DNA from: a virus
Length of the DNA stretch: 64,000 nt
Reading direction: 5' to 3' (one strand)
IMG/VR virus record: IMGVR_UViG_3300033183_000299
Coordinates: 1 to 64,000 of that record
Within the stretch, counting starts at the first letter, position 1. Every line of letters starts with the position of its first letter. Shown here in pieces: positions 44,170 to 63,624 of this stretch. The translations under genes were made by a program, and so were the position numbers. The notes under the pieces are model-generated. The model was not told the origin of the DNA. It saw only the letters and a list, made by a program, of their open reading frames with translations, and did no database searches.

Positions 44170-44198
44170 AATATAACATGTTTAAATCATGTTGTCAA
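44170..44198 (-). promoter_or_regulatory. Sigma-70 promoter of the nuclease-like gene
   Basis: TTGACA (44193-44198), 17 bp, TATATT (44170-44175); the -35 lies in the methyltransferase 3' end. Confidence 0.75.
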
Positions 44199-45173
44199 GT
44201 TTTTTCCTTCATTTTTTATTCGCCTCTCGCAAACCTCGATTGCGTCTTCGCTAATGTCGAATAGAATATAGTTACGATCTAATTGTGATGCTGCAACGCC
44301 TGTGGTGCCTGCTCCTGCTACCGGATCAAGAATGGTATCTCCAACGTCTGTCGACATCTCAATGATGCGTCTAAGAAGCGATACGGGCTTCTGAGTGGGA
44401 TAAACTCGTTCCTCTGAGCCCATAGCGATTGAATGAAGATCATCCCAATAATCTGTTGAAGGCTTGCCTTTTGACTCATGAGCATATATCTTCTTGTAGG
44501 GGTTTGCATTCTTCTTATTGCTTGGAAAGTGAATCCGATCATCTTTGATCAGATCCTCTAAATCATCCTTGGACATTCTCCAGCCATAAGTTGGAGTATA
44601 AGTCTTGCCGTTGTGAGTAATGCTATAGTAACGTTCCGACTTGCTTTTGTCTGGTGCTTGCGTCTTTGTGTAGCAAACATGACCAAGAGCATAGTTTCCT
44701 CGACTGTCCTTGTTCTTGTAAGAGTTCTCCGCATAGTAAGAGTCCAATGGTTGATAGACCATGTTGAACTTTGGCTTCTCGATATGAGAGCACCAAAAGA
44801 TCACATCAGTGCACGCTCCGAGTTTAGACTTGATGTTGTTCTTTGATCTCGAACGTTTCCAAAAGATTGGCTGAACTCTCCGAAAAAATTTTGAGCAGAT
44901 CATGTGAGGAATAAGCATTTGATCTGCCGAGATGTGAAAGAAAAACGATCCATCTTTCTTTAAGACTCTCGCACACTCTTTGACCATCGGTTGCACCAAG
45001 GCAACGTATTCATCATCAGTAAAGATGTCATCGAAGCCAATGCTATCATCATCTGAAGTTAATCGGTACTTTCGATTTGAATTGAATGGCGGATCGAAAT
45101 ACACAGCGTCGACACTCTTTGATTCCAGCTCTTTCAACAGCTCTCGCGAGTCTCCAAGTTTAATTATATTCAT
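44187..45173 (-). CDS. DNA methyltransferase, beta class (328 aa)
   Basis: DPPF motif IV at 27-30 precedes the AdoMet-binding motif DPVAGAGTTG (283-292), the order of beta-class amino-methyltransferases (N6-adenine or N4-cytosine). Middle region (GWRMSKDDLEDLI) is typical of type III/orphan enzymes. May protect phage DNA from host restriction or pair with 43377-44138. Confidence 0.9.
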   Translation of the reverse strand: MNIIKLGDSRELLKELESKSVDAVYFDPPFNSNRKYRLTSDDDSIGFDDIFTDDEYVALVQPMVKECARVLKKDGSFFFHISADQMLIPHMICSKFFRRVQPIFWKRSRSKNNIKSKLGACTDVIFWCSHIEKPKFNMVYQPLDSYYAENSYKNKDSRGNYALGHVCYTKTQAPDKSKSERYYSITHNGKTYTPTYGWRMSKDDLEDLIKDDRIHFPSNKKNANPYKKIYAHESKGKPSTDYWDDLHSIAMGSEERVYPTQKPVSLLRRIIEMSTDVGDTILDPVAGAGTTGVAASQLDRNYILFDISEDAIEVCERRIKNEGKNLTT

Positions 45174-45412: not shown

Positions 45413-47566
45413 TCACCCCAATAGTTTCCAGTTTCTTGATAATCCACCGCGTGTTGAGAAGCCCCAAGTTGCATTATATTGTGGCCACTCCAAGACATAA
45501 AGTCTGTGAGTATAGATGTGGTCCATCTTTGGATCCACTCCCCAACAGTTGATACGTTGCGTTTCCATGTTTGAGTCAATGACTGTGACTTGATAGTAAG
45601 CCTTTCCCGTCTTTGTCTTTCTCTCCGTAACATCAGTTGGGATGCACCAAGCCTTGCCTAGTTCAGGATCGTACTCAGAGATGGGCATGATGCCTTGCAT
45701 CTCGAAGAACTTGTAAGCCTTTGGAGGAACAACCATATTGATAGGATAAATCCCAGTCAATGCTTGAAGGTGGTTGATACGCTCACCTTTGCTAAAGTCT
45801 CCTTCATCTCGATACTTCTCAATGTTCTCTCCAAGTTTCTTCTTGTTCTTTGGCTTGTCAACAACAACCGCAGACCAGAAGTGCTTGTCTCCAAAGAAGC
45901 GTTCATCCATCAAGGAAGTCATCGCTCCGGCTCGACACAGAGCGTCTAAGGACTTTTTATTGACTTTTCGGGCTACGACACCTTTATCGAACAAAAGGTC
46001 TTCTACGGACGAAAATGGACGCTTACGGACGATCTCTTCAATTGCTGCTTCTCCGAGACCCTTGATGGTAGTTAAAGGAGACACAAGGTTTCCGTCAACG
46101 ACTTCCCAACGAGTTCCAGATGTGTTGATGTCCAAAGGCTTAACTTTATAGCCAAACGAACGAGCAATGTTGATGGCCGCTTCTTTACGCTTCTCGGGTT
46201 CATGATCCAAGAAAGAAGCAATCCACTGATCTTGATAGTAAGTCTGAAGCCAAGCGCATTGATACGAAATGATAGAGTATGGAATGGCGTGGTTCTTTGA
46301 GAAACCATAGCCAGAGAAGTATTCCATCTTTTCCCATAGAACCTTAGCATCTTTGAAGGACATGCCTTTCTTCTCGCAACCTTTGACGAAGCGTTCATAA
46401 AGATCTTTCTTCTTTTTCATCTTGGTCTCGGACAAACCTTTCTTGGTCAAGAGCTTACGCAATACGTTAGCGTCAGTCATTGTAATCTTATCTCCGAGAA
46501 CATTCACCAAGTTCATGATGTCCTCTTGGAATACGATAAGGCCAAAGGTCTTGCCCAACACTTGCTCAATCAAAGGATGATCATACTCAACATCGTCGTC
46601 TCCGAACTTTGCCTTTACATACATCTTATCAACATTAGCAGATAATGGACCGGGACGATAGATAGCACTCACAGTCGCAATTTCCTCGATAGAAGACACT
46701 TTCGCGTTCTTGCCTAATCGTTGCATACCTGAGTTCATAAACTGGAATACACCAGCAAATTTGCCCTCATGAAACACCTCCTCATAAACACGTTGATCTT
46801 CCATGTCGAGAACTGACGGATGAAGGTTTTCATTGTACCATTGGCGACAGTCTTCAAAGGTTGGATTACGAACACCTTGAGAGATAAGGATGCGTTGGAT
46901 TGCGTCCTCGAACATCTTAAGAGTCTCGAGACCAAGAATATCAAACTTAATAAAGCCCAATGGTTCCAAGTGACGAACGTTCTGTCCTTCAGCCCAAGGA
47001 GTTTGGCGAATACCTTTCGAAGTAATCAAAGGCATCTTCGCAGGAAGATAGTCTCCGATGATTGCTCCTGCCGCATGACGACCGATTGAGCGTGGTTGAC
47101 CAATCAAGCCAAGAACTTGCTCTTGGATATGAGGATAGCTTCTGAAGAAACCTTGGAGGCTCTCGGAGTAATCACAGACCTCTTGAAAGGTCGGAGTGTA
47201 CACACCAGCCTTGATGCCGTGCTTTTTCTTTGCGATTGGAGTTGCCTCAGCAAGCATAGCTTTAGTTACAGCATTGACTTCACCGAAGTTAACGCCTTCA
47301 CGTTTGGAGATGTCTTTGATTAAAGAAGACAACTGAAGAGTGTTGTAGTTCGAGATGAACGCAACAGAGTCTTCGCCCCATTCCTCGACCATCTTGTCTT
47401 TGATAAGAGAGTTGTCTCCAAAGTCGATATCCACATCCGGCATCGAAGTCTCATTTCTGTTATGGACCAGAAGGCCGTTAACAGCCTCGCTGTTTCCATT
47501 TGCGATAACCTTGATTGGTATCTCAACGTTATCTAGTTTTTCTATTTTTGATATTGTAAAATTCAT
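45413..47566 (-). CDS. dnaE: DNA polymerase III alpha, C-terminal half behind an intein C-fragment (717 aa)
   Basis: Residues 1-36 look like an intein C-fragment ending VNGLLVHN. The extein starts RNETSMPDVDIDFGD, carrying the two catalytic Asp (D44/D46), and continues through the fingers (FGLIVFQEDIM, GYGFSKNHAIPYSII) to a helix-hairpin-helix and an OB-like end. The +1 residue after HN is Arg, not Cys/Ser/Thr, so normal splicing is doubtful. Own promoter and CGGAGGATAA ribosome site. Pairs with 48582-50189. Confidence 0.85.
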   Translation of the reverse strand: MNFTISKIEKLDNVEIPIKVIANGNSEAVNGLLVHNRNETSMPDVDIDFGDNSLIKDKMVEEWGEDSVAFISNYNTLQLSSLIKDISKREGVNFGEVNAVTKAMLAEATPIAKKKHGIKAGVYTPTFQEVCDYSESLQGFFRSYPHIQEQVLGLIGQPRSIGRHAAGAIIGDYLPAKMPLITSKGIRQTPWAEGQNVRHLEPLGFIKFDILGLETLKMFEDAIQRILISQGVRNPTFEDCRQWYNENLHPSVLDMEDQRVYEEVFHEGKFAGVFQFMNSGMQRLGKNAKVSSIEEIATVSAIYRPGPLSANVDKMYVKAKFGDDDVEYDHPLIEQVLGKTFGLIVFQEDIMNLVNVLGDKITMTDANVLRKLLTKKGLSETKMKKKKDLYERFVKGCEKKGMSFKDAKVLWEKMEYFSGYGFSKNHAIPYSIISYQCAWLQTYYQDQWIASFLDHEPEKRKEAAINIARSFGYKVKPLDINTSGTRWEVVDGNLVSPLTTIKGLGEAAIEEIVRKRPFSSVEDLLFDKGVVARKVNKKSLDALCRAGAMTSLMDERFFGDKHFWSAVVVDKPKNKKKLGENIEKYRDEGDFSKGERINHLQALTGIYPINMVVPPKAYKFFEMQGIMPISEYDPELGKAWCIPTDVTERKTKTGKAYYQVTVIDSNMETQRINCWGVDPKMDHIYTHRLYVLEWPQYNATWGFSTRGGLSRNWKLLG

Positions 47567-47586
47567 TTATCCTCCGTGTTATTATT

Positions 47587-47615
47587 AATATAACACGAAC
47601 AGGCATCCGTGTCAA
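47587..47615 (-). promoter_or_regulatory. Sigma-70 promoter of the dnaE C-half
   Basis: TTGACA (47610-47615), 17 bp, TATATT (47587-47592), within the end of the homing endonuclease gene; the C-half can be transcribed independently. Confidence 0.75.
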
Positions 47616-48556
47616 GTTTTTTTCTTAAGTTTTTGAATTGCACCCTTCACAGAGCTGTAGGTTCGGTTAGGAAAGTGTTCCTTCCAAATGTCGCACGGTC
47701 TTTTGCCTTCTTTAAAATTTTCTAATAGCAAAGACTTTTCTTCAGGTGTCCATTTTTGCTCATAGCGCTTTTTAAGTCCAAGGTAACCACATCTTTTCTC
47801 CACACTAGCGTAAGTTCTGTTTGGGAAGAACTTTTCTAACATTTGACGAACAGACATTTTTTCATGATTATCTCTTAAGATCTGATTGTCCTCTTCGGTC
47901 CACCTGTTGTAGTTTCTGTAGGTTTTTTCCTCTTTGTGCTTCATGAATTTGCCCCACTTTCTCTCCAAGAGAGGCAGATCTTCGCTGTACAGGAAGTTTA
48001 GAACATTTATTGCCGTTGATGACCCAAAAGACAATGTACAAATCCTTTTATGTTCTCTAATGGCCACGATATTCTCAACGACCTCTCTTTCCACAAGAAA
48101 TTCCAGAATTGATGATAGAAACGATTGAGTTCCCAAAATCTGCAACGATAGTTTGTTATTGCTAACGCAGATGCTTCCGTCGCCATCGATGTAGCCACAG
48201 ATGAACGCCTTCTTATTCTCTATGTTTTTGAATTCTGGGAACTTAAGAGTCAAAGATTTTGCTGGTGTGATATTCCAGTTTCTCTCTAGATCCCTTTTCC
48301 ATTGCTTACTTGATAGTCCAAAAGAAATTATCTTGTAGCTTTGTCCATTCAAGCGTCTCTCGTCCTCTCTTAGGGAATAGTCTTCACTCAAAAGGTTTGA
48401 TAGTTTTCTAAGGTGCTCCGCATCCTTGTAGGATAAGGATATCTTCAGTTCGTTTCCTTTAGATGAGACGTTTCCATCGGCTGCGATGAAACCCGCCCAA
48501 TAAGAGTTGAGCGGGGCTTTAATATTAAAGAAGTTGTTATTTTTTTGATAGGCCAT
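47612..48556 (-). CDS. LAGLIDADG homing endonuclease between dnaE halves (314 aa)
   Basis: Two LAGLIDADG motifs (YWAGFIAADG about 19-28; FICGYIDGDG about 118-127) and two Myb/SANT-like DNA-binding repeats (RWTEEDNQIL..., KWTPEEKSLL..., each followed by FPNRTYxSV). Free-standing, with its own AGGAGG site and a CTATTTA motif upstream, as in fractured genes with split inteins. Would cut intein-less dnaE alleles. Confidence 0.9.
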   Translation of the reverse strand: MAYQKNNNFFNIKAPLNSYWAGFIAADGNVSSKGNELKISLSYKDAEHLRKLSNLLSEDYSLREDERRLNGQSYKIISFGLSSKQWKRDLERNWNITPAKSLTLKFPEFKNIENKKAFICGYIDGDGSICVSNNKLSLQILGTQSFLSSILEFLVEREVVENIVAIREHKRICTLSFGSSTAINVLNFLYSEDLPLLERKWGKFMKHKEEKTYRNYNRWTEEDNQILRDNHEKMSVRQMLEKFFPNRTYASVEKRCGYLGLKKRYEQKWTPEEKSLLLENFKEGKRPCDIWKEHFPNRTYSSVKGAIQKLKKKT

Positions 48557-48573
48557 TTGGTTTTCCTCCTATC

Positions 48574-48583
48574 TTAAATAGTC
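48574..48583 (-). promoter_or_regulatory. CTATTTA motif upstream of the dnaE homing endonuclease
   Basis: Minus strand GACTATTTAA, 18-27 bases before the ATG; late-promoter candidate. Confidence 0.4.
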
Positions 48584-50189
48584 AGGAAGCCAATAAAGCG
48601 TCTCCTTCTTGCAAGTTTTTAACCATAACCTCTTTCTTGTCTCCATTACGAGAGACCTTAACAAACAAGTTGGGGCTCAAAGTTAAAACTTCACCAGTTT
48701 CGCTCGTGAGTCTAATGTAGTCTGCTCTCTCTTTCACTTTGGAGTTTTCATCGTGAACGCCGAATAAGTCACCTCGAGTAAGGAAACGTTCAAAGGGAAG
48801 TCCCCACTTCATTGGATCAATCTGCGTAATGTTCAAAAGAAAAGCAAGCAAAGACCCTGCTGCAGAACCACGAGCAGGTCCAACAAATGTATAGTTCCAA
48901 GAGAAATCAGTAATTGCTTTTGTAGCAAGAAAGTATTCAGAGAACTTTTGAGAAGAGATAACATCTAGTTCCTCCGTCAATCGTTTTCGGTAGTGTCGCT
49001 TTGTTGTCTTGTCTGATCCGCGGAGATATGTCTTAAGAGCATCTTCGGCAAGTTCAGCAAGTGCTTCGTCAGCGCTTTTGTCGCTTGGAACCATAAAAGA
49101 AGGAAGCTGAACAGAAGTATCAGGAAGAAAATCTTCAATCTGCTCGAAAGCGATGGTTGCTGTGTTGGTGATTGATTGAATAACCAAATCATCGTCATAA
49201 TCGAAGTTACACTCAGCAGAGTATCGCTTATATGATTCCCACATTTCGTGAGCATTTTTAGGATATAACTCATATCCAATTTCCTCTACAGTCTCTGGGA
49301 TGTTATCATCCATCCAAGCAGGCATCTTGCCTAACCAGCCTAGTCGCTTGTAGACTTCACGATCACGCCATGCGTTTGGATTTGGATAGTGAGAGTCACA
49401 AGTTGAGATCAAACTGATATCAAGTTGCTTTGCTACTTTAATTAGGCATTTGTTTAGTAGATGCTGTTCCGGAATATTATTCCATTGTAATTCAGCATAA
49501 AATCTGTCTCCGAACACGTCTTTAAACTTCTTAAGGTTTCCAATCATGTCCTCTACAATAGCATCTTCGCCTTCTTCTTGCTTTTTCCACATTGACTCTG
49601 CGGCGATACCACCAAGACATGCTGTGGCGACGATAACGCCCTCTGAGTGTTTCTTTAAAAGCTCAAAGTCAATACGTGGCTTACGATAGAAGTAGTCTCC
49701 AGAGTATGACTTGGAAACCATTTCATAGATGTTCTCGAGACCCTTTTGGTTTTGTGCGAGAAGAACGAGGTGACGCTTGCGACCAAGTGCTCGCTTGTCG
49801 TCTCGTTGCTCGTCTTCGATAACCATGGCGGAGTCTCCGCTTTCAATTTCTTTTGCTCGCTTCTTATCTTGAGCAATCTCGTCTCGAAGAGCTTGCCATT
49901 CTTCAAGCGAGTCAATATAGTAAGCTTCAACACCAAAGATTGGCTTGAAGTCTTTACCTTCAGCTTTCATTTCTTTTGCTCGCAACAGTTGGTACGACAA
50001 ACCATTCATGCTTCCATGGTCTGTGAGGGCAAGTGCTCGAGATCCATTCTCATAGGCAAAGTCCATGTGCTCCTGTGGGAAGCCGAAGCCATCGAACATG
50101 GAAAATGCCGAATGTGCATGAAGGCCGACAAACTCGTGGTTGTAGAGTTTTTTACCATTAATTTCTATGTAGTCACTTGTGTTATTCAT
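48582..50189 (-). CDS. dnaE: DNA polymerase III alpha, N-terminal half plus intein N-fragment (535 aa)
   Basis: PHP domain (HAHSAFS, LTDHGSM) and palm start (GPARGSAAGSLLAFLL, then PFERFLTR ending at 472). The last 63 residues (GDLFGVHDEN..., TSETGEVLTLSPNLFVKV block-B-like, KNLQEGDALLAS) are an intein N-fragment. There is no Cys/Ser at the expected first intein residue. GGAGAACAA in front, TATATT promoter upstream. Makes half the replicative polymerase. Confidence 0.85.
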   Translation of the reverse strand: MNNTSDYIEINGKKLYNHEFVGLHAHSAFSMFDGFGFPQEHMDFAYENGSRALALTDHGSMNGLSYQLLRAKEMKAEGKDFKPIFGVEAYYIDSLEEWQALRDEIAQDKKRAKEIESGDSAMVIEDEQRDDKRALGRKRHLVLLAQNQKGLENIYEMVSKSYSGDYFYRKPRIDFELLKKHSEGVIVATACLGGIAAESMWKKQEEGEDAIVEDMIGNLKKFKDVFGDRFYAELQWNNIPEQHLLNKCLIKVAKQLDISLISTCDSHYPNPNAWRDREVYKRLGWLGKMPAWMDDNIPETVEEIGYELYPKNAHEMWESYKRYSAECNFDYDDDLVIQSITNTATIAFEQIEDFLPDTSVQLPSFMVPSDKSADEALAELAEDALKTYLRGSDKTTKRHYRKRLTEELDVISSQKFSEYFLATKAITDFSWNYTFVGPARGSAAGSLLAFLLNITQIDPMKWGLPFERFLTRGDLFGVHDENSKVKERADYIRLTSETGEVLTLSPNLFVKVSRNGDKKEVMVKNLQEGDALLAS

Positions 50190-50218: not shown

Positions 50219-50247
50219 AATATAACACGTTGTGTTGATGTTGTCAA
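50219..50247 (-). promoter_or_regulatory. Sigma-70 promoter of dnaE
   Basis: TTGACA (50242-50247), 17 bp, TATATT (50219-50224). The -35 contains the stop codon of the 50244-50414 gene. Confidence 0.8.
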
Positions 50248-51236: not shown

Positions 51237-52184
51237 TTATTTCGCAGCTATGCAAGATGAGCCAGCCATCAACTCACGCATCTTGAATAAGCCTTCCTGC
51301 TTGTGCTTACACTCGAGCATCACATAGACATCAAACTCATAAGTTTCAACCGCTTTCCAATAAGAATCGGAGTGGGCTTGTGGTCTAATTTTAGGATTGT
51401 TATGCTCTACAGCACGAGACTGAGAGTAGTGAATGACTGGAGGAATGCCCTCTGGCCATGTTGAGACAGCCAGAGACATTGCCTCATAGTCGCTTTGACC
51501 ACCAGTGCACATTGTGTGGTGATGCACGTCATGCACAATTGGAATGCCGATGACGCTGTAGATGCCGTCGTAGAGTTCTTTGGTTGAGTAGAGACTTTCC
51601 TTGTCGTCGTTCTCCACGGTCAAGCGAGACTTCACAGCGTCAGACAAGCGATGAAAGTTTTTGCAGAAGTCAGCCATTGCTTTTGGCTTGTCGTTGTAAG
51701 CCGCACCGACGTGAATGTTGATCTTCGCCCAAGGAGAGCGAGGTTGACACAAAAGATCCATCATCTTACCATTGACTTCAAGGTCTCGAATGGTGTTTTG
51801 TACAACCTGCTCATTTGGAGAACAAAGTTTGTTGAAGGGGCCGGGGTGGCAAGTCAAGCGAATGTTGTGCTCGTTTGCAAACAGGCCGGCTTCATAAAGG
51901 GCTTCTTCGATAGCATCAAAGTCTTTGAGATCTTCAAGGTTGTATTCGGAAGCCCAAGGAAAGATTTCTGAAGACATGCGAAAGAAGTGAATATCATGCT
52001 CTGCGTTCCATTTAAGGATTGTGAGCAAGTCGGTTACGTTTTGAAGAACGACCTCGGACACATAGTCGAGACCTTTCTCTTGAAATGTTTTCTTACGCAT
52101 TGTGCGATTGGTTGATACTTTCACCTTGCGAGATGAAAGTTCGGTGTTGATACAGGCATAGCCCAAGTTATAGTTGTTAGTCAT
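51237..52184 (-). CDS. uvsE: UV damage endonuclease UvdE/UVDE (315 aa)
   Basis: LGYACIN start, FFRMSSEIFPWASEY, RLTCHPGPFN, NIHVGAAYNDK, RLTVENDD and PIVHDVHHHT are the metal and active-site blocks of the UVDE TIM barrel. Nicks DNA 5' to UV dimers and other lesions. Known in bacteria and fungi and occasionally in phages. Own TATATT promoter. Confidence 0.95.
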   Translation of the reverse strand: MTNNYNLGYACINTELSSRKVKVSTNRTMRKKTFQEKGLDYVSEVVLQNVTDLLTILKWNAEHDIHFFRMSSEIFPWASEYNLEDLKDFDAIEEALYEAGLFANEHNIRLTCHPGPFNKLCSPNEQVVQNTIRDLEVNGKMMDLLCQPRSPWAKINIHVGAAYNDKPKAMADFCKNFHRLSDAVKSRLTVENDDKESLYSTKELYDGIYSVIGIPIVHDVHHHTMCTGGQSDYEAMSLAVSTWPEGIPPVIHYSQSRAVEHNNPKIRPQAHSDSYWKAVETYEFDVYVMLECKHKQEGLFKMRELMAGSSCIAAK

Positions 52185-60440: not shown

Positions 60441-61484
60441 CTAGAAGATCTCGCAAGATCCTCCTCCACAAGCTATCTCCCCTGACAAATCAGTTTCGTC
60501 TGTTGTCTCTACAACTAGATCCAAGTTCACACTTTTCAGTAATGGAAGCATTTCTTCATACTCTTGCTTGGAGCAGTCCTCGTAAGGAGCCTGCACGTAA
60601 CTGTGGTTGGAATAAGGAAGAACCGACAATCCATTGTAAACACCTCGATTACTCCACATCCACTCTCCAACGGTTTCCCATTCATCATCCTTGATGGATA
60701 CTGTTGCTGAAACGTTATGGGTATTGCTTCCCTTCTTGTGACCTGGCTTGATCCATTCGGTAGAAACTTTCTTTACTCTCTCGAGCAAATCAAGGGCGCT
60801 CTCATGGCGCGTAATAGCCCCTTCAGGAGCTTTTTGAGGCACAGATAGGATAGCAGTGTCGTGTGGTCGGAAACGGTCGTCCTCGATGAGCTCAGGCAGG
60901 TTATTGACCAAGTATGAGTAGATTGCCTCATTCTTTCCAACACGCAAGCGGCGAATGTAATAATCATTGTGCCATGCGTGGATACCACTTGACGTTCCAA
61001 GAGTGAGAGAAGTTGTCCCTGCGGGCTTAACGCATGTCTGGCGGGCAGCTTTGTTAATGCCGATTTGCATAGCAACTTGACGGTTCATCTTAGATACCTC
61101 CAAAGAAGCCTCAGTCATGTTGAGACCCAACACACCACCAGAAGCAATACCAGTCATTGATACTCCGATCAAAGCATCTTTCTCGGTTGTACGTTGCCAA
61201 ACTGGTCGCAGGTAATGAAAGTCTGTGTATGAGGCTTGGAGAGTTCCAATGAAAGAAGCAGCACGAGAACGAGCATTAAGTTCGTCTTGAGTATTCACAT
61301 CTGATACATTGATCTCGACCAAGTTACAGAATTGGAAAGGTCGGAGACCGATCTCGCAATTATGAACCAACAGTCCGTTGGCAAAAAAGTTGTGATTCTT
61401 TCTAACTTGAATATCGTAAACATCTCTGTTTTTTTCTACTGTAATTTTTTTAATTTTTGTTCTGTTATAAGTTCTTGTTTCCAT
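60441..61484 (-). CDS. nrdJ: Class II ribonucleotide reductase, C-terminal half behind split-intein C-fragment (347 aa)
   Basis: Residues 1-42 are a split-intein C-fragment (YDIQVRKNHNFFANGLLVHN) like that of NrdJ-1. C43 is the +1 nucleophile. The extein CEIGLRPFQFCN joins the N-half. Substrate-radical region, TCVKPAGTTSLTLGTSSGIH and the end IACGGGSCEIF (redox Cys pair) are present. Adenosylcobalamin-dependent type. AGGAGCTAAAAAA in front, within the homing endonuclease gene. Confidence 0.9.
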   Translation of the reverse strand: METRTYNRTKIKKITVEKNRDVYDIQVRKNHNFFANGLLVHNCEIGLRPFQFCNLVEINVSDVNTQDELNARSRAASFIGTLQASYTDFHYLRPVWQRTTEKDALIGVSMTGIASGGVLGLNMTEASLEVSKMNRQVAMQIGINKAARQTCVKPAGTTSLTLGTSSGIHAWHNDYYIRRLRVGKNEAIYSYLVNNLPELIEDDRFRPHDTAILSVPQKAPEGAITRHESALDLLERVKKVSTEWIKPGHKKGSNTHNVSATVSIKDDEWETVGEWMWSNRGVYNGLSVLPYSNHSYVQAPYEDCSKQEYEEMLPLLKSVNLDLVVETTDETDLSGEIACGGGSCEIF

Positions 61485-62263
61485 TTTTTTAGCTCCTGTG
61501 TATAAGAATTTTGTAAATAAGGTTTGATGTCTTTTATGAGTACGACATCTATTTGTAATTTTTCGGAGAGTTCTTTCGTTTTAATCTCTCCTCTGGCCCA
61601 ATATCCTTTAATTTCTACTATTTTTACAAGACTGCCTTCTTCATAGATAAAAAAATCTGGTCTGTAAGTTGTCTTCTCCAATTGAAATGTTGTTTGCTCC
61701 ACGTCCCACTCAATCAAATGCTTATCTAGCCATTTAGCATAAACAAACTCATAAGTGCTTCGAAGCCAAACATATTTTTTCTTGCTTTTATTATAATAAT
61801 ATCCCTGAACGCCTCTGGATGTCTTGTTCGTTCTTCTTTCAAGAGTCTTAAACCAGCCTGATCTCTCTTTGTATGCTTTTTTAAGATTGTTGCTTCTGAT
61901 TTCTCTTGTTTTTTGGTAAACCACGTTTTGACCCTTGTTTATTTCTATTTTTAAGATTCCAAATAAAGTTCGAAGCCTTGTTGGTGTCAGGCCTATTTTC
62001 TTTGCAATAGTTTTTAGACCATAACCTTCCTCATAAGAACTGGTGAGATAATTTTTGAGAAAAAGAAAGTGGTCTGGATAAATCCTTTCGGCATTATTCC
62101 GAATAAAAGATCTTTTATTTGATGATCTCGCAGAATTTCCCATTTGAGACACTCTTGCTGATGCATATTTTCTATATTCTTCCAAGAACTCTTCCGGAAT
62201 TACCACTTCCTTTCCCTTGTCTGTGTTATAATAAATAACTTCTAAACATTCTTTTAAATTCAT
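61436..62263 (-). CDS. PD-(D/E)xK/Vsr-like homing endonuclease between nrdJ halves (275 aa)
   Basis: LRSTYEFVYAKWLD (E172), YRPDFFI (D203), VEIKGYW (E217, K219) give a nuclease core. The N-terminal half has a helix-turn-helix (GLKTIAKKIGLTPTRLRTLF). Placed between two split-intein halves, as in metagenomic fractured genes where Vsr-related enzymes were described. Overlaps the start of the C-half by 49 bases. Confidence 0.75.
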   Translation of the reverse strand: MNLKECLEVIYYNTDKGKEVVIPEEFLEEYRKYASARVSQMGNSARSSNKRSFIRNNAERIYPDHFLFLKNYLTSSYEEGYGLKTIAKKIGLTPTRLRTLFGILKIEINKGQNVVYQKTREIRSNNLKKAYKERSGWFKTLERRTNKTSRGVQGYYYNKSKKKYVWLRSTYEFVYAKWLDKHLIEWDVEQTTFQLEKTTYRPDFFIYEEGSLVKIVEIKGYWARGEIKTKELSEKLQIDVVLIKDIKPYLQNSYTQELKKWKQELITEQKLKKLQ

Positions 62264-62293
62264 TTCGGGCTACACTCCTTACATTATTTTATT

Positions 62294-62303
62294 GTAAATA
62301 GTG
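62294..62303 (-). promoter_or_regulatory. CTATTTAC motif upstream of the nrdJ homing endonuclease
   Basis: Minus strand CACTATTTAC, 31-40 bases before the ATG. Confidence 0.35.
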
Positions 62304-62322
62304 GCCCGAAATGGCAAAATAA

Positions 62323-63624
62323 TTATTCAACGAATAAAAGAATGTCCTCTTCGGTTAAATGTGCCGCTTCAACATAGCCTCTGTTTTCAGTGAATACTCT
62401 GTGGTCTGGGGTTAGGATTAATTCCTGTCCGTCCTCGGTTTCAATCTTGATGACATCGGCATCTTGTCTCGTAAGAAGACCCTCTTCAACCAACTCAAAC
62501 TCCATTGACCCCGTGTTCTCATCAAATGATAAGACCTTTATTTCTTGACCTTCATTGACTTTTGAGACGATCTGTTCGATTGTCATTGTACCAGAATTCG
62601 TCTCTATCTCAGTTGAGCCATCCAAACAACATGGGTTGCAACCCCAATCTTTGTCGTTCGAGAAGTAGAAACCGGGCTCTCCAGAGCGAGACTCTTCAAC
62701 ACGCTTCCATAGATTCATGAATGTTGGCTTGTCGATCTTGTGACGCATTACAACTACAGAATTATTCGCTCTTCCTCGTTGTGGGTTGAGTTCCCACCAA
62801 GCTCCGGCCTTTGCGCTAAGCATGTCTTCGTCATCAGCACTGAATAGACTAATGAGAGCGGCGCGACGAATACCGCCCGCCAAAACCGCATCCGCAATGT
62901 GGCAGATGATATCATGAACCTCAATGGGTGAAAGCTTGTCTCCGTTTTCTTTCGCATCTAAAATTCCCTCCACTTTTACCAGACACTCCTTTAATGGCTG
63001 AGGGCCTGGTGCTTTACCACCTGATGTTACAAGTCTCGCACCTTTGGGGCGAATGTCCGAGAAGTCAAAACGCAACTTTGACGTTCCCTTAAAGTGAGAC
63101 ATCATAAGGGCTTTTACAGCATCGGCCCATCCTTCGATTGAGTCACCAATTAAGAAACGACGAGTTCTCTTTGATGAAGGCTTGCGAATCTCTGGGAGGT
63201 TATCTACATGATGCTTTTGCACTGAATAGCCCACACCTGTGCCTCCAAGAAGTAAGAACATGATCTCTCCGAACACTCGAGGATCATCAGCGGGTGCATA
63301 AGCGCAGTTAAAGATGCGGTTCGGCGAAACCTCAATTGGCTTACCTCCAAACTGCATCGATCTCATTGAAGGAAGAACCTTCTTGTCGAACACGAATTTG
63401 TAGTTCTCACGGATCTCTTGCTCGAGACTTGGAAACTTCTTGATGTGCATTTCCATATTACGAGTTACTAACTCGTTCCAGTTTTCTCGACGATTCTTAT
63501 CTTCAAGATATCGTGCATATTTCATGTGGACGGTGATGTCCGACAGAATCTTTTTCTCTAAATCCATACCTTTCTCCTGTAGTTTTTTGTAGTATTCTTT
63601 TTCCTTTTCTGTGTAGGTGTCCAT
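62323..63624 (-). CDS. nrdJ: Class II ribonucleotide reductase, N-terminal half plus split-intein N-fragment (433 aa)
   Basis: Extein 1-332 (LPSMRSMQFGGKPIEVSPNR, LLGGTGVGYSVQKHHV, ending DKDWGCNPC) is the adenosylcobalamin-dependent type. The intein starts at C333 (CLDGSTEIETNSG), with block B LTPDHRVF, and ends EEDILLFVE. Together with 60441-61484 this rebuilds NrdJ with CEIGLRPFQFCN at the junction. Fits the NrdJ-1 split-intein family. 2 bases after the helicase gene. Confidence 0.9.
   Translation of the reverse strand: MDTYTEKEKEYYKKLQEKGMDLEKKILSDITVHMKYARYLEDKNRRENWNELVTRNMEMHIKKFPSLEQEIRENYKFVFDKKVLPSMRSMQFGGKPIEVSPNRIFNCAYAPADDPRVFGEIMFLLLGGTGVGYSVQKHHVDNLPEIRKPSSKRTRRFLIGDSIEGWADAVKALMMSHFKGTSKLRFDFSDIRPKGARLVTSGGKAPGPQPLKECLVKVEGILDAKENGDKLSPIEVHDIICHIADAVLAGGIRRAALISLFSADDEDMLSAKAGAWWELNPQRGRANNSVVVMRHKIDKPTFMNLWKRVEESRSGEPGFYFSNDKDWGCNPCCLDGSTEIETNSGTMTIEQIVSKVNEGQEIKVLSFDENTGSMEFELVEEGLLTRQDADVIKIETEDGQELILTPDHRVFTENRGYVEAAHLTEEDILLFVE

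Follow-up and report, generated by a model that had tools for sequence, protein, structure and literature searches.

Fractured genes carrying split inteins and free-standing endonucleases were reportedly described by Dassa et al. in 2009, mainly from phages. In cyanobacteria, DnaE is made as two chains bearing the halves of a functional split intein (Ssp/Npu), which lies at an insertion site other than the one considered here, with its genes far apart and no endonuclease. Among phage enzymes encoded as genes-in-pieces, the split NrdA of Aeh1 (NrdA-a/b with mobE) and gp43A/B of phage 25 were reported to work as separate chains, and T4 gp39/gp60 with mobA is a further example (PMC2988022). Here, we describe a dnaE gene, encoding a DNA polymerase III alpha subunit, from 64,000 nucleotides of viral DNA (positions 1 to 64,000 of IMG/VR virus record IMGVR_UViG_3300033183_000299; hereafter, the window). 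The gene is interrupted, its intein halves lack splice residues yet are conserved, and this state recurs in other phages. We consider it probable that the split intein of this fractured dnaE has died and that the polymerase now consists of two chains.

The window dnaE is broken at 48.6–47.6 kb, and a nuclease gene sits between its N-half and C-half (Table 1). The N-half ends with ...FERFLTRG/DLFGVHDENS...GEVLTLSPNLFVKV...LQEGDALLAS and a stop, and the C-half begins with MNFTISKIEKL...AVNGLLVHN/RNETSMPDVDIDF, where the slash marks the border between native and intein-derived residues; across the break, FERFLTRG is thus followed in order by a tail, a stop, the nuclease, a leader and the native C-half. 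In relatives at 82–89% identity dnaE runs uninterrupted through the break site, and in L001–L004, L006 and L012 the end of the N-half match and the start of the C-half match overlap in bases, as in one dnaE. Because close relatives read FERFLTRGSxGFPDIDIDF without a break, dnaE is genuinely interrupted in the window. An earlier note, made from the sequence alone, had proposed a fractured-gene layout of two dnaE halves and a LAGLIDADG enzyme; the three open reading frames (ORFs) and the intact relatives bear this out, with an enzyme gene broken by intein halves and a free-standing endonuclease between them. The PHP, palm, fingers and HhH regions of a DnaE-type polymerase III alpha subunit are all recovered with Pfam and NCBIfam, and the catalytic aspartates are present. 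Alignment to solved DnaE places the break at E. coli residue 393, in the palm and eight residues before D401, and D44/D46 of the C-half align with the catalytic E. coli D401/D403.

Residues required for protein splicing are missing on both sides of the break. The alignment of the window tail with functional intein N-domains starts just before block B and continues to the end; block A, and with it the Cys/Ser at position 1, is absent, and the block-B TxxH is replaced by SPNL. The +1 position, where a class 1 intein has Cys/Ser/Thr, is Arg both in the window and in L005, the one other fractured allele found. The C-terminal His-Asn is present in the window (VHN) and is RN in L005 (FRN/RNETSMPD), and is therefore not lineage-wide. 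No Cys occurs in tail or leader, and both the class 2 (Cys +1) and class 3 (Cys at block F:4) readings are ruled out on residues. A bacterial intein-like (BIL) domain, which is a single-chain Hint domain lacking the +1 nucleophile and includes an N-terminal Cys in its definition, was also ruled out, the remnants being split and without Cys1. Since classes 1, 2 and 3 each need something absent here, no known splicing class fits (PMC4031507). The penultimate His, absent in L005, is missing from about 5% of functional inteins (PMC4031507). The earlier note was thus right that no Cys/Ser begins the intein part after FERFLTR and that the C-extein starts with Arg. It is corrected in that the G following FERFLTR is native DnaE (TRGS in intact alleles), that the whole of block A is gone and more than Cys1 alone, and that the block-B His is also lost; the absent block A, the C-half promoter, the recurrence and a fractured nrdJ about 11 kb away had escaped it. 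These residues predict no ligation of the halves by the split intein.

The kinship of the tail to inteins emerges from profile comparison. Pfam and NCBIfam recognise neither tail nor leader, TIGR01443/TIGR01445 match neither, although they do detect the window's nrdJ intein, and single-sequence searches with each (Pfam, NCBIfam, PDB phmmer, PHROGs) returned no significant hit. The window tail alone has a hidden Markov model score inside the range of shuffled sequences, and hhalign gives it 19%. Together with four other split-DnaE tails, which it matches at E 4e-8, it aligned to functional phage inteins at 91% probability with a score of 36.2, as compared with a maximum of 17.7 in 200 column shuffles. 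A profile of 33 Bacteroides-type tails plus BS-TP1 reached 94.6% and a score of 44, against 18 in shuffles. Furthermore, the DnaE N-half family phrog_13169 matches the window dnaE tail as well as the N-part of the nrdJ intein. AlphaFold modelled the tail within the window N-half at a predicted local distance difference test (pLDDT) of 25–35, too low to be informative; with a model of the tail family (mean pLDDT 69), the top six Foldseek matches in the PDB were inteins or Hedgehog Hint domains at E about 1, a supportive fold match that is not significant by itself. On the C side, seven pooled leaders scored 19.1 against inteins, with shuffles at most 12.6; the window and L005 leaders alone align only over the last seven positions, and leaders of the window and of Bacteroides-type phages gave no significant match to each other. 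By the profile tests the tail descends from the Hint/intein fold, and we assign it on sequence grounds as a Hint remnant. The intein features that the earlier note called clear (LTLSP, VNGLLVHN) are accordingly not evident by themselves, and it took profile comparison to bring them out.

A same-site split DnaE with a dead tail is also found in Tenacibaculum phage Larrie and Cellulophaga phages phiST and phi13:1, where the halves are two adjacent ORFs without a nuclease and where, in phiST, the annotation lists no further DNA polymerase. Bacteroides phage BS-TP1, in which the C-half lies on the far side of a Dda-like helicase gene, fecal phage MT835494 and about 50 IMG/VR contigs likewise have the split at this site with such a tail, and MT835601 has a leader and C-half of this kind with the N-half off the contig. 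The Bacteroides-type leader reads MKV..PVKVLDCFVDSGY....HG/SLPDVD, in which the +1 Ser is kept and the Asn is gone. In Cbastvirus the leader is cut down to about 17 residues, which suggests that the tail may act by itself; a Cbastvirus-based scan found no relatives. Some candidates were rejected. The DnaE genes of Bacillus phage vB_BauM_KLEB27-3 (L034) and Klebsiella phage GArcari-2022b (L035), interrupted by HNH-type or similar ORFs, are broken elsewhere, and the tail-like stretch of GArcari is likewise present within the DnaE of SSU5, which is unbroken. In Bacteroides phages DAC23 and SJC03 (L051, L048), DnaE is one chain that carries about 59 extra residues in frame after FSRFLNAGRV, at the same site; as a re-fused intein remnant, this insert scored no better than shuffles and has no detectable kinship to the tails. 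The split C-half of MT835601 (L058 968-3475) additionally contains an in-frame intein of normal appearance, FNK/C...CN/SHAAAY.

This recurrence bears on two other explanations. The halves might still be ligated, or at least trimmed, through a reaction not yet described, such as an Asn cyclisation at VHN/R that frees the leader, given that the window retains the terminal His-Asn and that C-terminal cleavage alone requires little else. We regard this as unlikely: neither remnant has a Cys, position 1 lacks Cys/Ser, +1 is Arg, the block-B His is gone, the penultimate His is absent in L005, the Asn itself is lost in the Bacteroides-type relatives, and distant phages, cultured ones included, keep the same-site split with dead tails. 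The earlier note had left the choice between two chains and an unusual reaction open; two chains are favoured, and the unusual reaction is disfavoured because no nucleophile of a known class is present. Alternatively, block A could have been lost in assembly from a working split intein, as the N-junction is seen in a single metagenomic contig. This is very improbable, since block B and +1 are dead too, the C side is dead in L005, and block A is absent at the same place in finished genomes of other phages. Likewise, a sequencing error at the junctions, named in the earlier note as a possible refutation, is unlikely because L005, an independent contig, has the same C-side arrangement with an additional loss (FRN in place of VHN) and because finished genomes of cultured phages carry the same kind of dead tail.

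Both halves look independently expressed, as each has its own promoter. TTGACA-17-TATATT, a phage-type promoter followed by GGAGGA and ATG, lies upstream of the C-half (47615), and L005 retains it apart from a single change in the -10; a like site lies upstream of the N-half (50247). The promoter-like motif TTGACA-17-TAnnnT has about 20–21 minus-strand sites in the window, upstream of many genes (for example 52235, 50247, 47615, 44198 and 25467), and its second hexamer is often immediately preceded by CGTG or CATG.

Both dnaE halves are constrained between the window and L005. The ratio of nonsynonymous to synonymous change (dN/dS) between these alleles is 0.12 for leader residues 1–27, 0.078 for the remaining C-half and 0.09 for the nuclease, which is under purifying selection; the short segments give low counts. 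Block G stands out, with 7/9 residues differing as against 4/40 in its flanks (Fisher p 1e-4); the 13 residues after it show one nonsynonymous and six synonymous changes. L005 has a 10-bp hairpin at the place of block G, and the change may partly reflect a local hairpin. A decaying pseudogene, with the phage using its own PolA-like protein or a host polymerase, would be compatible with the PolA-like ORF in the same record; it is nonetheless improbable, as both halves are long and open with the catalytic aspartates in place, dN/dS between the fractured alleles is 0.078, the C-half has a dedicated promoter, and cultured phages have the split form only, as far as annotated. That ORF (L070; G000:C1 77265-78524, minus strand), divergent and of 420 residues, lies outside the window.

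The tail is present in all of the approximately 50 Bacteroides-type loci and changes at nearly the rate of the core, its identity following that of the core over 528 pairs (53% for the tail versus 62% for the core, r 0.86). Most pairs are saturated for dS; of two unsaturated pairs, the first gave equal dN/dS for tail and core (0.032 and 0.031), and the second, very close, gave a higher value for the tail from few changes. It is possible, and we hold it tentatively, that the remnants dock the two chains, as a domesticated docking module kept across several phage groups. The same tentative reading would take in the bypass-like recoding signal found in the scar of some phages (below). Alternatively, tail and leader could be idle, neutral scars, with the chains associating via their own interface, a variant counted within the two-chain claim. 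The shortened Cbastvirus leader and the loss of block G in L005 fit such scars; retention of the tail in every Bacteroides-type locus at nearly the core rate and the constraint on leader residues 1–27 speak against them, and we give this variant a lesser, though real, chance.

As we envisage it, an ancestral dnaE would have been broken just before the catalytic aspartates by a split intein accompanied by a free-standing LAGLIDADG endonuclease. Splicing capacity was then lost, as the sequence shows: block A/Cys1, the block-B His and the +1 nucleophile are missing, and in the sister allele the penultimate His is missing too. The N-half and C-half would be made as separate proteins assembling non-covalently into a polymerase, and the surviving intein halves may still pair as a dead Hint domain that helps to hold the split palm. 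By analogy with Aeh1 NrdA and phage 25 gp43A/B, the separate chains would assemble into a working polymerase, and we take the enzyme to be very probably two-chained. Several points weigh against it. The window N-junction is known from one contig, with no second copy found in IMG/VR; the intein kinship of the C-leader is weak beyond GLLVHN; given the PolA-like ORF, DnaE need not be the sole polymerase; and a shared ancestry with the splits of Bacteroides phages is not established, the C-half tree setting them apart.

In that tree, the window and L005 belong to a clade whose other members are intact alleles, a long way from the Bacteroides/Cbastvirus group, and the window pairs with the intact L006 (94/97). 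The starred branches require at least three state changes, and the tree gives no support for the split having arisen only once. The nuclease has two motifs with acidic residues, WAGFIAADGNV and ICGYIDGDGSI, which are kept in L005, and presumably continues to promote cassette homing. The proportion of synonymous differences (pS) between the window and L005 is 0.60 for the nuclease and 0.67 for dnaE; with the nuclease value about that of dnaE, there has been no recent cassette exchange between the two. The 13 codons after the leader are 82% identical between the fractured alleles, as compared with 44–54% (window) and 49–64% (L005) to intact alleles, a tract that appears co-conversion-like. Patchy loss and old homing both fit this history.

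In four relatives (L078, L118, L079 and L049), the leader meets a stop codon within GSLP or directly behind it, and 7–8 nt further on the catalytic motif resumes in another frame; L058 (gap about 40 nt) and the decayed L121 are variants. The C-half is otherwise open in all frame-broken loci except L121. Immediately before the take-off codon, these four have a 10-bp hairpin with a three-base loop; the frame-break hairpin is more stable than in synonymous-codon controls, and broken and in-frame loci differ (Mann-Whitney p 6e-4). A nuclease ORF lies directly upstream in 5/5 non-decayed frame-broken loci versus 6/29 in-frame loci (Fisher p 0.0017), with nuclease status assigned by ORF position and partly by Pfam, and the loci not phylogenetically independent. 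With a take-off codon, a stop codon directly after it, a stem loop on the 5' side and, in some, matched landing codons (L079 CCG..CCG, L121 GTC..GTA, L058 GAT..GAT), these scars resemble the translational bypassing of T4 gene 60 (PMC5009743), and the frame break may be a bypass-like recoding signal. Re-initiation or sequence error is a possible alternative. No bypass is needed in the window or in L005, both of which are in frame.

Table 1. Features of the dnaE and nrdJ loci in the window
Feature	Position	Strand	Remarks
Promoter of N-half, TTGACA-17-TATATT	50219..50247	-	motif
dnaE N-half (PHP domain and first palm part; dead intein tail at end)	48582..50189	-	535 aa (amino acids)
N-tail, N-half residues 474-535: second half of intein N-domain, remnant	48585..48770	-	no block A, no Cys1, TxxH = SPNL
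LAGLIDADG homing endonuclease with Myb-like DNA-binding repeats	47612..48556	-	314 aa; Pfam LAGLIDADG_3 E 9e-10
Promoter of C-half, TTGACA-17-TATATT	47587..47615	-	same type upstream of N-half and of many further genes
dnaE C-half (catalytic aspartates, fingers, HhH)	45413..47566	-	717 aa
C-leader, C-half residues 1-36: putative intein C-domain remnant, ending GLLVHN	47459..47566	-	no Cys; +1 Arg
Imperfect hairpin covering block G, CTGTTAACGGCC-TTCT-GGTCCATAACAG, mismatched at two positions	47457..47484	-	weakly supported
RNETSMPDVDIDF, first native C-half stretch, with catalytic aspartates	47420..47458	-	common to L005, unlike intact alleles
nrdJ N-half	62323-63624	-	fractured gene
Nuclease-like ORF in nrdJ	61436-62263	-	between nrdJ halves
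nrdJ C-half	60441-61484	-	fractured gene

The dnaE locus is flanked by a DNA methylase gene (44187-45173, minus strand; N6_N4_Mtase E 1e-39) and a gene for the UV-endonuclease UvdE (51237-52184, minus strand; E 1.5e-62). A second fractured gene, nrdJ (class II ribonucleotide reductase), occupies 60441-63624 on the minus strand. Its split intein is complete, with Cys1, TPDH, HN and Cys+1 (PDB NrdJ-1 8ubs, E 2e-27), and it is apparently a textbook-like fractured gene, intact and functional. The loci form a natural series, from the apparently functional nrdJ with a nuclease, through the dead intein with a nuclease in the window and L005, to the permanent two-gene form of Cbastvirus, which has no nuclease, and the separated halves of BS-TP1; the series makes it directly testable how a selfish element becomes a new protein subunit. 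In addition, a replicative polymerase split within the catalytic palm offers assembly studies an unusual subject.

As in fractured genes of the Dassa type, the window dnaE is an enzyme gene broken by intein halves with an endonuclease gene between them; it differs in that both intein halves lack splicing residues and the endonuclease is a LAGLIDADG-Myb protein. Both it and the cyanobacterial Ssp/Npu DnaE consist of two chains with intein halves, whereas the window halves are dead and accompanied by an endonuclease. The genes-in-pieces enzymes are likewise split near a homing endonuclease gene, but no intein remnants are described for them in PMC2988022, and the enzyme here is a different one, DnaE, a C-family polymerase. 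The break site and type of dead tail are shared with phiST and its relatives, which have two coding sequences named DNA polymerase III alpha subunit in GenBank, and which differ from the window in lacking the endonuclease, in their very short leader and in their adjacent ORFs; in the part of the literature searched, no paper describing this DnaE remnant was found. The kind of locus, a fractured gene and gene-in-pieces, is therefore already known, and what is new, as far as that partial search shows, is the presence of dead yet conserved intein halves recurring at one site in DnaE.

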